64,000 bases of DNA, from the NCBI GenBank assembly GCA_013288325.1, contig JABDCB010000009.1:1-64000 (forward strand). Direction: 5' to 3'. The notes beneath the pieces were generated by a model. The model saw nothing but the letters and a program-made list of their open reading frames with translations. It was not told the DNA's origin and did not search any database. Shown piece after piece: positions 2,042 through 62,172 of the stretch. This DNA is from Bacteroidota bacterium. GTDB taxonomy: Bacteria > Bacteroidota > Bacteroidia > Palsa-965. The position numbers and the translations under genes are program-made. How positions within the stretch are numbered: the first letter of the stretch is position 1; each line of letters begins with the position of its first letter.

Positions 2042-2223
2042 ATCAGCGTTAGCTGTATTCTGGTAGTCAAAATCGCGAAATTTTAACCACGTCCAAGAAT
2101 ATAAGTTGATGCTCACGTCAAAGGCGTGGGCTTTACTTATTTGGACGAAGGTGTTTCGCGATACCTGACTACCAATATGGTAAATGTCCCACGCTGATTT
2201 TTTTATCAGCCTGTTCGGGACAT
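2042..2223. ncRNA. candidate structured non-coding element (nested hairpins)
   Basis: TGGTAGTCA(2061-2069)/TGACTACCA(2166-2174), TCGCGAAA(2073-2080)/TTTCGCGA(2154-2161), CGTCCAA(2090-2096)/TTGGACG(2141-2147), GCTCACG(2111-2117)/CGTGGGC(2125-2131), ATGTCCC(2184-2190)/GGGACAT(2217-2223), GCTGAT(2193-2198)/ATCAGC(2205-2210). Confidence 0.6.
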
Positions 2224-5428: not shown

Positions 5429-5604
5429 CAATCTAGTTCCCTACCTTCTTGGATCTGCTTGAAGGCTGATTCCATGTCAGTTTTACGGATATTGGCTTCC
5501 TCATTGTTCTTTGAGGCTAGGTATTTTTCTATTGAGTCGCCCCAATACACGATTACTCCCATATCCGTATTAAGGTCGTCAAAAACGGTTCGTTGAATAC
5601 ACAT
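5425..5604 (-). CDS. small ORF copy 1 (59 aa): MCIQRTVFDDLNTDMGVIVYWGDSIEKYLASKNNEEANIRKTDMESAFKQIQEGRELDC
   Basis: Hand translation of the reverse complement; a paralogous segment at 6043-6186 keeps GVIVYWGDSIEKY.ASKNNEEA.IRK. Confidence 0.6.
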   Translation of the reverse strand: MCIQRTVFDDLNTDMGVIVYWGDSIEKYLASKNNEEANIRKTDMESAFKQIQEGRELDC

Positions 5605-5660
5605 AAGTGAATATATAAAAATCCCGAATCATAATCTCCTATATTAGCATTAAAAATGCT

Positions 5661-5924
5661 ATGGAAGATAATATGGAAACAGTTTTAATGCAGTCAGTAG
5701 CCAGATTAACGGTAGAAAACTGTAGCTTAAGAGCTGAAATTACTATTTTAAAAACAGTTTTTTTAAGCTATCTGTCCAAGTCTGACAGTGAACTCTTAGA
5801 GAGTTATCACGCTTATCATGAAAAACAATTTTCAAAGTTGACCTCGCAGTATTTTTCTGATATTCCTGCAATAAATGACGAGTTGACTCGCGAGATAAAA
5901 GAGCAACTCGGAGGTATTCTATAG
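5661..5924 (+). CDS. small hypothetical protein (87 aa)
   Basis: ORF track; helical composition; TAGCATT-AAA-AATGCTA inverted repeat at the start codon. Overlaps a competing minus ORF. Confidence 0.5.
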   Translation: MEDNMETVLMQSVARLTVENCSLRAEITILKTVFLSYLSKSDSELLESYHAYHEKQFSKLTSQYFSDIPAINDELTREIKEQLGGIL

Positions 5925-5958
5925 ATTTTCGCATCAGTCTCTCTTCACTTGACTCCAT
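5743..5958 (-). CDS. small ORF (71 aa, MESSEERLMRKSIEYL...) downstream of duplicated leader A
   Basis: ATG preceded by GGAAGGAGG inside the duplicated leader; overlaps the plus ORF 5661-5924, so one may be non-coding. Confidence 0.35.
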   Translation of the reverse strand: MESSEERLMRKSIEYLRVALLSRESTRHLLQEYQKNTARSTLKIVFHDKRDNSLRVHCQTWTDSLKKLFLK

Positions 5959-6064
5959 AAAAAACCTCCTTCCCGCCTCTAAAAGGTGAAAAATTGGCCT
6001 TCTTTTCAAAAAAAGTCCCTTCCATCGATAAAATATAGTTTTTCACAGACCTCTGATTTTAGGT
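5956..6064 (-). repeat. duplicated leader, copy A (~109 bp)
   Basis: Near-identical to 6732-6841 (AACCTCCTTCCCGCCTCTAAAAGGTGAAAAATT...ATCGATAAAATATAGTTTTTCACAGACC...GATTTTAGGT). Confidence 0.9.
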
Positions 6065-6186
6065 TTACGGATACTGGCTTCCTCATTGTTTTTTGAGGCT
6101 GGGTATTTTTCAATCGAATCGCCCCAATACACGATTACTCCGGCATCAATGTTTAGGTCATCTGGATTATTTATTTGGACGGACAT
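6043..6186 (-). CDS. small ORF copy 2 (47 aa, truncated paralog): MSVQINNPDDLNIDAGVIVYWGDSIEKYPASKNNEEASIRKPKIRGL
   Basis: Hand translation; homologous to 5425-5604 up to IRK, then runs into leader A. Confidence 0.5.
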   Translation of the reverse strand: MSVQINNPDDLNIDAGVIVYWGDSIEKYPASKNNEEASIRKPKIRGL

Positions 6187-6262
6187 ACTTAAAAAACATT
6201 CAAAACAATATTCCAGCAAGTTCTTATTTCACTAAGTTTATGTATATCAAACCCATATCCTT

Positions 6263-6484
6263 ATGTCACATGTTGCTGTCAATATTACTTACAAAGGGAA
6301 GCCATTCACTTCTGAAATGAGCAAACAACATCCTGAACTCATGAGTCTATTCCCTGATATGTCTACATTCCTTGCGTTATATCTTCCATTACGTGATAAA
6401 GCCATTAAAAGTGGCATATTGCAATTTTTAGATATTTCAGAAGACGGAATAATGATAAATGGAGTACCTATTACCTTAACTTAA
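6263..6484 (+). CDS. small hypothetical protein (73 aa)
   Basis: ORF track; protein-like composition; convergent with 6471-6734. Confidence 0.5.
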   Translation: MSHVAVNITYKGKPFTSEMSKQHPELMSLFPDMSTFLALYLPLRDKAIKSGILQFLDISEDGIMINGVPITLT

Positions 6485-6734
6485 ACAATACATCGGATTG
6501 GGTTGTTGCAGAACCATCCGCCTTTGTGCTAAATGCTGAAATCAAAATACGTCCTTCGTCTTTCAAAAAAACATGAACTATTTGAATTTTACTTCCTGTA
6601 GGTAGTTCGTATTTATCCTGTATTGTTGATATCAGACTCCTAGACACTTTCTCCAACTCATCTTGAATATTGATTGAGGAGGTTTCATCGAATACTTGCA
6701 ATTCGGGAACCATTATTTTTTCAATTTGCCCCAT
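6471..6734 (-). CDS. small hypothetical protein (87 aa, MGQIEKIMVPELQVFDETSS...) downstream of duplicated leader B
   Basis: ATG directly preceded by GGAAGGAGGTTTTTA within leader copy B. Confidence 0.55.
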   Translation of the reverse strand: MGQIEKIMVPELQVFDETSSINIQDELEKVSRSLISTIQDKYELPTGSKIQIVHVFLKDEGRILISAFSTKADGSATTQSDVLFKLR

Positions 6735-6841
6735 TAAAAACCTCCTTCCCGCCTCTAAAAGGTGAAAAATTAGCCTCGTTTTCAAAAAAACACCATACTA
6801 TCGATAAAATATAGTTTTTCACAGACCCTCGGATTTTAGGT
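6732..6841 (-). repeat. duplicated leader, copy B (~110 bp)
   Basis: See copy A. Confidence 0.9.
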
Positions 6842-60151: not shown

Positions 60152-61132
60152 ATGACAACACCTTCCAAAGACACAAAGACTAAGATACTCCCTGCAGAAA
60201 AAGCGGGATTGCATGCGCGAAACCCGCATCGTTTCCCGTATGATTTTAAGGTGCTGGTAAAAGCCTGTCCTGAACTATCTCCTTTTGTATCCCTGAATAA
60301 ATACGGGAATGAAAGTGTGGACTTTGCCAACCCGGCTGCTGTAATTATGCTGAACAGGGCCTTACTCATGCATTTTTATGGGGTTGCAGAATGGGATATA
60401 CCCGCTGGGTATCTCTGCCCGCCTATTCCCGGCCGTGCGGATTATATACACCATGCAGCGGATTTGCTGGCCAGTTCGAATGGAGGAAAAATCCCATACG
60501 GAAAATCAGTTCGGATCCTTGATATCGGAATGGGAGCCAGTATGGTTTATCCGATCATCGGACATAAAGTATATGACTGGAGTTTTACAGGCAGCGAGAT
60601 AGATCCGGCAGCTATTGCTTCGATCAAACGTCTGCTGAAAGCAAATCCAAGACTTGCTCAGGATGTGGAATTGCGTTTGCAGAAATCTGCAACCGATATA
60701 TTCAAAGGAATAATCAAGTCGGGTGAGTATTTTGATCTCACTATTTCCAATCCACCTTTCCATGCCTCCCTGGCAGAAGCACAGGCGGGGACAGAACGTA
60801 AATGGAAAAATCTGGGTCGTAACAAAGGGCAAAAAGAAACACGCAATTTCGGAGGACAGTATACAGAACTCTGGTGTGAAGGCGGGGAGCAGGTATTTAT
60901 CGGGAAGATGATTGAGCAAAGCAAGGATATTGCTGAGTCCTGCTATTGGTTCTCTACCCTGGTTTCCAAAAGTGAAAGTCTGCGCGGAATCTATAGGACG
61001 TTAAAAAAAGCCGGTGCGGTGGATGTGAAAACCATCGACATGGCACAAGGGCAAAAGACAAGCCGGATTGTAGCCTGGTCCTTTTTGAGCAAGAGCCGCA
61101 GAACTGAGTGGCGCTTGAGAAACTGGGACTAA
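60152..61132 (+). CDS. rlmF: 23S rRNA (adenine(1618)-N(6))-methyltransferase RlmF
   Basis: LHARNPHR, ILDIGMGASMVYPIIG, FDLTISNPPFHAS. Confidence 0.95.
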   Translation: MTTPSKDTKTKILPAEKAGLHARNPHRFPYDFKVLVKACPELSPFVSLNKYGNESVDFANPAAVIMLNRALLMHFYGVAEWDIPAGYLCPPIPGRADYIHHAADLLASSNGGKIPYGKSVRILDIGMGASMVYPIIGHKVYDWSFTGSEIDPAAIASIKRLLKANPRLAQDVELRLQKSATDIFKGIIKSGEYFDLTISNPPFHASLAEAQAGTERKWKNLGRNKGQKETRNFGGQYTELWCEGGEQVFIGKMIEQSKDIAESCYWFSTLVSKSESLRGIYRTLKKAGAVDVKTIDMAQGQKTSRIVAWSFLSKSRRTEWRLRNWD

Positions 61133-61177
61133 GGCCTTACCTAACCGAAGGACCTCTTATTGCCCCCACATCTAAAG

Positions 61178-61614
61178 GACATCTCTTCTCGTCTCAGGAG
61201 TGTTTCTCCACGTCTGGATCATGTCTTTTCTCATCTGCTGCGTGTTTCTCCTCGTCTGGAGCATGTCTTTTCTCGTCTCCGGAGTGTTTCCCCTCGTATA
61301 GATAATGTCTTTTCTCGTCTGCTGTGTGTTTCTCCATGTCAGGATCATGTCTTTTCTCGTCTCCTGAATGCTTCTCCACGTCTGGATCATGTTTTTTCTC
61401 GTCTCCAGAGTGTTTTTTCACGCCTGGATCATGTTTTTTCTCGTCTCCAGAGTGTTTTTTCACGCCTGGATCATGTCTTTTCTCGTCCCCTGAATGTTCC
61501 TCCACGTCTGGATCATGTCTTTTCTCATCTCCTGAATGTTTGTCCGCGTCTGAATAATGTCTCTTCTCGTCTCCTGAGTATTTCTCCACGTCTGAGGAGT
61601 GTTTCTTCTCATCA
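61178..61614. repeat. 42-bp tandem minisatellite (~10 units)
   Basis: Unit boundaries at 61220, 61262, 61304, 61346, 61388, 61430, 61472, 61514, 61556, 61598, exactly 42 bp each; consensus catgtcttttctcgtctcctgaatgtttctccacgtctggat. Confidence 0.97.
61194..61589 (-). CDS. candidate repetitive D/E/K/H-rich protein, (DPDVEKHSGDEKRH)n
   Basis: Minus frame open across all repeat units; several inter-unit changes are synonymous (gac/gat, aaa/aag). GTG start only; start site not convincing. Confidence 0.4.
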   Translation of the reverse strand: MEKYSGDEKRHYSDADKHSGDEKRHDPDVEEHSGDEKRHDPGVKKHSGDEKKHDPGVKKHSGDEKKHDPDVEKHSGDEKRHDPDMEKHTADEKRHYLYEGKHSGDEKRHAPDEEKHAADEKRHDPDVEKHS

Positions 61615-61759
61615 GTATTGTAGAAGAAAAATCACCAATTGATAGTGAGAGAGTTAGGTGTTCGTATAGGTTCGAGTCAGAACAAGTAAGTAGGGTAGGA
61701 AAAATCCGTATCTTTAATTAGTGTTTCCGAAGTGGTGAAATGCGATAAAAATCTTATTT

Positions 61760-62077
61760 ATGAGCGAAGAACAAAATAACCCCAATCAGCTGAATATAGA
61801 GCTGAATGAAGATGTAGCAGAAGGAATCTATTCCAACCTGGCTATTATTACCCATTCCAATTCGGAATTCGTTATTGATTTTATCAAGCTGATGCCGGGG
61901 GTTCCCAAGGCCAAGGTGAAGTCGAGGATTGTGCTGACACCTCAGCATGCCAAACGTCTGATGAAGGCTCTTAAAGATAATATTGGCAAGTTTGAGCAGG
62001 TACATGGTCCTATTAAGGATACCGATATGCCTAATACGCTACCCCTCAGCTTTGGTGGGCCTACCGCTCAGGCTTAA
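61760..62077 (+). CDS. DUF3467 domain protein
   Basis: GIYSNLAIITHSNSEFVIDFIKLMPGVPKAKVKSRIVLTPQHAKRLMKALKDNI. Confidence 0.92.
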   Translation: MSEEQNNPNQLNIELNEDVAEGIYSNLAIITHSNSEFVIDFIKLMPGVPKAKVKSRIVLTPQHAKRLMKALKDNIGKFEQVHGPIKDTDMPNTLPLSFGGPTAQA

Positions 62078-62080
62078 AAA

Positions 62081-62153
62081 AGCGGCAGGAGGCAGCGGCA
62101 GTATGCCCATAGGGTTAGTTTAATTTTGCCTCCTGCTGCTGCCTCCTGCCGCT
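62081..62153. terminator. bidirectional terminator from GCAGGAGGCAGC repeat
   Basis: AGCGGCAGGAGGCAGCGGCAG (62081-62101) pairs with CTGCTGCTGCCTCCTGCCGCT (62133-62153), flanked by A and T runs, between convergent genes. Confidence 0.8.
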
Positions 62154-62172
62154 TTTTTTCTACCTCCTGCGC

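Follow-up and report, generated by a model that had tools for sequence, protein, structure and literature searches.

The element and its gene context

The window analysed here is a stretch of 64,000 nucleotides from a Bacteroidota bacterium (assembly GCA_013288325.1, contig JABDCB010000009.1, positions 1 to 64,000 of the forward strand). Nucleotides 2041-2224 of the window were identified by covariance modelling as one member of an RNA family and lie between a -7 promoter box and a gene for a predicted lipoprotein. The element consists of a long rod of helices (H1-H4) and flanking strands that belong to a local hairpin (P0), an outer helix (P1) and a further stem (P3). The family was modelled with two covariance models, R1, which was built from eight sequences, and R2. 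The features are listed below, with the evidence in parentheses.

1987-1994, + strand: -7 promoter box TATATTTG, Bacteroidota consensus TAnnTTTG (sequence)
2041-2205, + strand: core element as modelled by R1 and R2, from the P1 5' strand to the U-run (cmsearch, 139 bits)
2042-2049, + strand: P1 5' strand ATCAGCGT (covariation of the outer pairs)
2044-2055, + strand: P0 local hairpin CAGC-GTTA-GCTG, exclusive with P1 (covariation)
2061-2069, + strand: H1 5' strand TGGTAGTCA, partner 2166-2174 (double-sided compensatory changes at every pair)
2073-2080, + strand: H2 5' strand TCGCGAAA, partner 2154-2161 (double changes, almost no G-U)
2090-2096, + strand: H3 5' strand CGTCCAA, partner 2141-2147 (held-out alignment, helix 3)
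2101-2140, + strand: conserved tip ATAAGTTGATGCTCACG..CGTGGGCTTTACTTAT, H4 (sequence block conserved across members)
2141-2147, + strand: H3 3' strand TTGGACG (held-out alignment)
2154-2161, + strand: H2 3' strand TTTCGCGA (RNAalifold and held-out alignment)
2166-2174, + strand: H1 3' strand TGACTACCA (RNAalifold and held-out alignment)
2183-2190, + strand: P3 5' strand AATGTCCC, partner 2217-2224, pseudoknot with P1 possible (compensatory variants)
2191-2198, + strand: P1 3' strand ACGCTGAT, also within the GCTGAT/ATCAGC hairpin (sequence, fold, covariation)
2195-2206, + strand: U-run strand TGATTTTTTTAT, complementary to 2230-2241 (T conservation, pairing test)
2217-2224, + strand: P3 3' strand GGGACATT (compensatory variants)
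2230-2241, + strand: A-rich pre-start segment ATAAAAAAATCA (sequence, pairing test)
2248-2754, + strand: downstream gene, predicted lipoprotein of 168 residues (ATG at 2248)

The H4 stem in the window pairs GCTCACG (2111-2117) with CGTGGGC (2125-2131) and contains one U.G pair. The score of 139 bits is high by construction, since the window is among the training sequences of the model. A previous sequence-only reading of this DNA had described nested stems between 2061 and 2174, P3, the GCTGAT hairpin and the ATCAGCGT/ACGCTGAT complementarity, all of which were confirmed, with positions that differ by no more than one base, and GGGACAT (2217-2223) does end 24 nt 5' of the lipoprotein ATG. It had missed the -7 box, the P0 hairpin that shares its 5' strand with ATCAGCGT and the perfect 12-bp match between TGATTTTTTTAT and ATAAAAAAATCA directly 5' of the start codon. 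The + strand folds with an energy of -83.1 kcal/mol, compared with -45.3 +/- 4.0 kcal/mol for dinucleotide shuffles (z of -9.4, reached by 0 of 200), and the - strand of the element gives a z of -7.5. Since 120-nt segments at several other sites in the window have folds as good or better, folding energy alone is not decisive; homology is.

Identification and distribution of the family

BLASTN with the element found no further copy in its own genome or in 59 relatives, with matches of only ~20 nt, and almost nothing among relatives, plasmids and phages, because the stem sequences diverge. One weak match to a phage record (MT835758, E = 0.06), confined to the tip, is a true structural homolog, in which the flanks retain the same fold with changed stem sequences. 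A first, over-strict pattern gave no matches, and a looser pattern of the shared tip gave 31 in genome contigs and yielded six more full homologs (two from Paludibacteraceae and one each from Prevotellaceae, Cytophagaceae, Tidjanibacter and Bacteroidales). As a negative control, none of 21 non-Bacteroidota loci that match the tip pattern was matched by the covariance model. Two sets of five candidate viral contigs are likewise non-members, with a single partial match of 32 nt (E = 0.17).

R1, trained on the window, the phage copy and the six pattern-derived homologs, found members in 67 of 295 genomes of Bacteroidia. With R2, members were found in 57 of 346 genomes of Bacteroidota, some of them from other classes, and up to ten copies per genome were counted when more candidates were scored. 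Copies within a genome share a median identity of 71% and a maximum of 88%. The genome of the window has a single copy, and a search of three further genomes of its genus found none. The element is also carried by a gut phage record and by a plasmid. The plasmid copy (L186:3988-4149; NZ_CP044017.1, mobilizable plasmid pB3-10 of Rhizosphaericola mali) lies ~60 nt before an unknown gene of 187 residues. Tandem copies on one strand, ~120-190 nt apart, were observed at two loci (L040:954-1119 and 1311-1477; L154:2501-2661 and 2784-2948).

Covariation and the conserved strand of the rod

The covariation test on homologs that the sequence-only reading had proposed was passed strongly. In 57 held-out members, none of which was used to build R1 (alignment A4), standard pairs occupy 92.6% of paired cells, compared with 66.2% after shuffling and 32-43% when the strands are slid by 1-3 columns. 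The same alignment contains 451 double compensatory cells versus 127 in shuffled data, a count reached by 0 of 500 shuffles. These figures are strong but are not probabilities, as relatedness among members is not taken into account by the shuffle controls and the R1 structure guided the alignment of A4. With RNAalifold run on 63 members, double changes reach 37 of 63 at single pairs of H1 and H2. H1 is paired in ~96% of cells and H3 in 84%, with double changes at all three modelled pairs of the latter. H2 is strictly Watson-Crick (G-U in 0 of 439 cells in A3 and 3 of 454 in A4) although its sequence varies almost freely.

Across the family, G-U pairs number 216 and A-C mismatches 20, part of the former being contributed by one near-invariant U.G pair in the tip. 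Thus, it is the RNA of the + strand that is conserved.

Mutually exclusive helices

P1 (AUCAGCGU/ACGCUGAU) is supported by covariation of its three outer pairs over 86-89 members (0 of 1000 shuffles for each). P0, which is CAGC-GUUA-GCUG in the window, covaries over 125-136 members (0 of 500 partner swaps), with its outer pairs 1-2 reached by 0 of 1000 shuffles. P0 and P1 exclude each other, since P0 uses the P1 5' strand, and both can be formed in 56 of 86 members. P3 (AUGUCCC/GGGACAU) is a strong stem in 43 of 88 members and absent from about half; it exceeds its partner-swap control and has many compensatory variants, such as GUCCC/GGGAC, AACCC/GGGUU and AGUUCC/GGAACU. No base is common to P1 and P3, which can therefore coexist as a pseudoknot. 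In the member L031, P1 extends to 13 bp (ATATAAAAAGCGT/ACGCTTTTTATAT).

The U-run has T at six positions that are conserved in about 80-90% of members. Its pairing with the A-run before the start codon beats 200 of 200 partner swaps, with a score of at least 9 in about 20 of 74 members, compared with 8.6 expected after swapping. Hairpins of the TTTTTTGTG..CACAAAAAAUG type, which end at or just 5' of the start codon, occur in about 11 members, most of which precede DNA methyltransferase genes. The proposal of a structured leader with two exclusive folds is thus upheld, with other partners than those first suggested: the GCTGAT (2193-2198)/ATCAGC (2205-2210) hairpin, put forward as the competitor of P1, occurs in the window alone among the members read. 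What recurs in members is P1 against the local P0, together with P3 and the U-run/A-run pairing downstream.

Position relative to genes

Of 120 members, 87 have a TAnnTTTG box in the 110 nt that precede the element, compared with 5% of background positions. The gene that follows is co-oriented with the element in 108 of 120, and the orientation of the upstream neighbour is near random (52 + and 67 -). The start codon is most often 20-50 nt downstream, at 40-50 nt in 36 of 140 members with a second group at 20-30 nt, and some copies are at least 200 nt from the next gene. The downstream products include DNA methyltransferases, TonB receptors, outer-membrane barrels, lipoproteins and response regulators. 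N6_N4_Mtase is found downstream in 6 of 101 members, with further matches to Eco57I, N6_Mtase and MmeI (not mutually exclusive), and signal-like N-termini in 69 of 110 downstream products (a crude rule without background control). The element is kept before homologous genes across genomes for response regulators, type III-like methyltransferases and SusC-like receptors.

A relative of the lipoprotein in L049 is also preceded by the element, and those in L006 and L007 are not. Protein-based searches of the viral and genome contigs with the lipoprotein gave no relative. Since these two relatives lack the element and most copies precede other genes, the suggestion of a cis-regulator dedicated to this lipoprotein is not tenable.

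At L051:1729-1761, a sub-threshold match to the DUF805b RNA (34.0 versus 35.6 bits) lies in the same leader, downstream of the element, so that two RNA motifs stand in tandem before a small lipoprotein gene.

Proposed function as a switching leader

The covarying homologs, the G-U bias of the + strand, the upstream promoter, the same-strand next gene and the tight start-codon spacing lead us to interpret the element as a cis-acting structured leader in the 5' UTR of the next gene, belonging to a family found across Bacteroidota. Because covariation supports both P0 and P1, which compete for one strand, and because the U-run/A-run pairing exceeds partner swaps, we further interpret it as a translational switch upstream of diverse genes. 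We assign this interpretation a probability of about 0.6; transcription, translational control and a signal are all inferred in it.

In the mechanism that we envisage, the strand 5' of the rod, with its conserved internal loops and tip, would pair either locally (P0) or with the strand behind the rod (P1). With P1 formed, its 3' strand and the first part of the U-run would be engaged and the pre-start A-run left free. With P1 open and P0 formed, the U-run would pair with the A-rich stretch and lower translation initiation; this direction of switching is itself inferred. In about half of the members, P3 may additionally form a pseudoknot with P1. The balance between P0 and P1 would be set by a signal sensed by the rod, presumed to exist and of a kind (metabolite, protein or physical) that can only be surmised, and would in turn set how strongly a diverse group of genes, most of them accessory or surface genes, is expressed.

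The riboswitch criterion of exclusive conserved structures in a 5' leader is met, by the P0/P1 covariation and the leader position. The criterion of a shared metabolic theme downstream is not met, there being no obvious common pathway, and such heterogeneous downstream genes are unusual for a metabolite riboswitch. Further points against a switching leader are the lack of expression or probing data, the small number of members with strong U-run/A-run pairing and the lack of P3 in about half.

The main rival to the switching leader arises from the order of its parts, as P1 followed by the U-run could instead be a transcription terminator. The element would then be an attenuator or a source of a 5'-UTR-derived small RNA of ~200 nt, with read-through giving the mRNA. 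The run of six T residues directly 3' of the P1 3' strand in most members, the 13-bp P1 of L031 and the copies at least 200 nt from the next gene would all suit such a terminator; its loop of ~140 nt is not that of a short hairpin, and the spacing to the start codon is tight. In addition, the P3 3' strands and the pairings near the start codon are conserved 3' of the U-run, so that read-through would be needed. On balance, we consider termination unlikely, though it cannot be set aside.

A passive structured 5' UTR, which would stabilize the mRNA or offer a ribosome standby site without switching, appears less probable still. It would account well for a very stable rod whose helix sequences vary at constant fold before very different genes, but conserved internal loops, a conserved tip and two exclusive covarying pairings exceed what a stabilizer needs.

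We give little credence to a hairpin acting at the DNA level, such as a REP, a MITE or an attC-like cassette site. Dispersed and patchy occurrence, with several copies per genome and none in the three same-genus genomes, and the varied cargo with plasmid and phage-record copies, are what a mobile element might show. A DNA hairpin does not explain a tolerance of G-U on one strand only, a within-genome identity of at most 88% with a single copy in the genome of the window, a fixed orientation to start codons with a promoter upstream, or conserved sequence at the tip and not the ends. The REP-like repeat that the sequence-only reading had offered as an alternative, and REP/RAYT or MITE repeats in general, were rejected, as there is one copy in the genome, no near-identical copies are found and strand, position and spacing relative to start codons are fixed. 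An integron attC site was rejected because the base of the hairpin is variable where R''/R' boxes would be expected and the conserved block is the tip.

Retron noncoding RNAs have an a1-hairpin-a2 layout, which P1 around a long hairpin with a conserved UUAGC resembles (a likeness in sequence not tested with a model), but reverse transcriptase is missing from the genome of the window (60% complete) and from nine of 18 element-bearing genomes, including the complete G297 with seven copies, which refutes a retron as a general explanation and leaves it hardly conceivable here.

Relation to known RNAs

In Rfam 15, no family matched the element itself in the window (at gathering thresholds or at E up to 10) or at 20 other member loci, and no published description was found in the literature collection searched, apart from a possible overlap with HMP2_4078. 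We regard the family as new and its kind, the structured cis-acting leader, as already known. Like metabolite riboswitches and orphan candidates, the element is a structured 5' leader with aptamer-like loops, exclusive pairings and a link to the start codon; it differs in having no known ligand, heterogeneous downstream genes and a long, near-perfect Watson-Crick rod. SAM-V is an example of a translational riboswitch with an H-type pseudoknot (PMC6061858). P1 and P3 can form such a pseudoknot near the start codon, but with a loop 1 that is a rod of ~115 nt and with P3 missing in about half of members. The DUF805/DUF805b RNA (RF02914) is also of cis-regulatory type in Rfam and shares a leader with the element in L051, but it is a motif of 35 positions, separate from and downstream of the element. 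Retron noncoding RNAs share the outer helix around a long hairpin; half of the element carriers tested lack a reverse transcriptase.

HMP2_4078 is a palindromic candidate RNA of 109 bp from human microbiomes, near D5_N and phage integrase domains, to which the paper describing it assigns neither a function nor a leader role (PMC8040213). Its size, its occurrence in Bacteroidetes and its D5_N neighbourhood are shared with the phage copy of the element, which lies ~1.3 kb from a D5_N primase in the record L008. The two may overlap, as judged from the text description alone, no sequence having been compared.

The family is carried by roughly a sixth to a fifth of the sampled Bacteroidota genomes, in up to ten copies, yet is absent from Rfam 15. 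It would imply that, in a phylum of major importance in the gut and the environment, methyltransferases, receptors and lipoproteins are subject to a regulatory layer without name or assigned function. We can only suggest tentatively that the element represents a new class of signal-sensing leader, either a riboswitch or protein-sensing, that jointly controls restriction-modification methyltransferases and surface proteins in Bacteroidota; if so, the controlled genes would be ones with a part in determining which phages gain entry. With its two exclusive helices, the proposed switch lends itself to direct testing, and the conserved loops provide a defined target in the search for a ligand or protein.

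Other features of the window

Two pairs of direct repeats (107 nt, 84%; 117 nt, 85%) lie at 5474-6827 behind a DDE transposase gene, with small open reading frames between them. A tandem array with a 42-nt period and nine overlapping register copies spans 61124-61669. At 62076-62158, a very strong hairpin, whose arms of 31 nt are 90% complementary and which has A- and T-runs on its flanks, is probably a bidirectional terminator.
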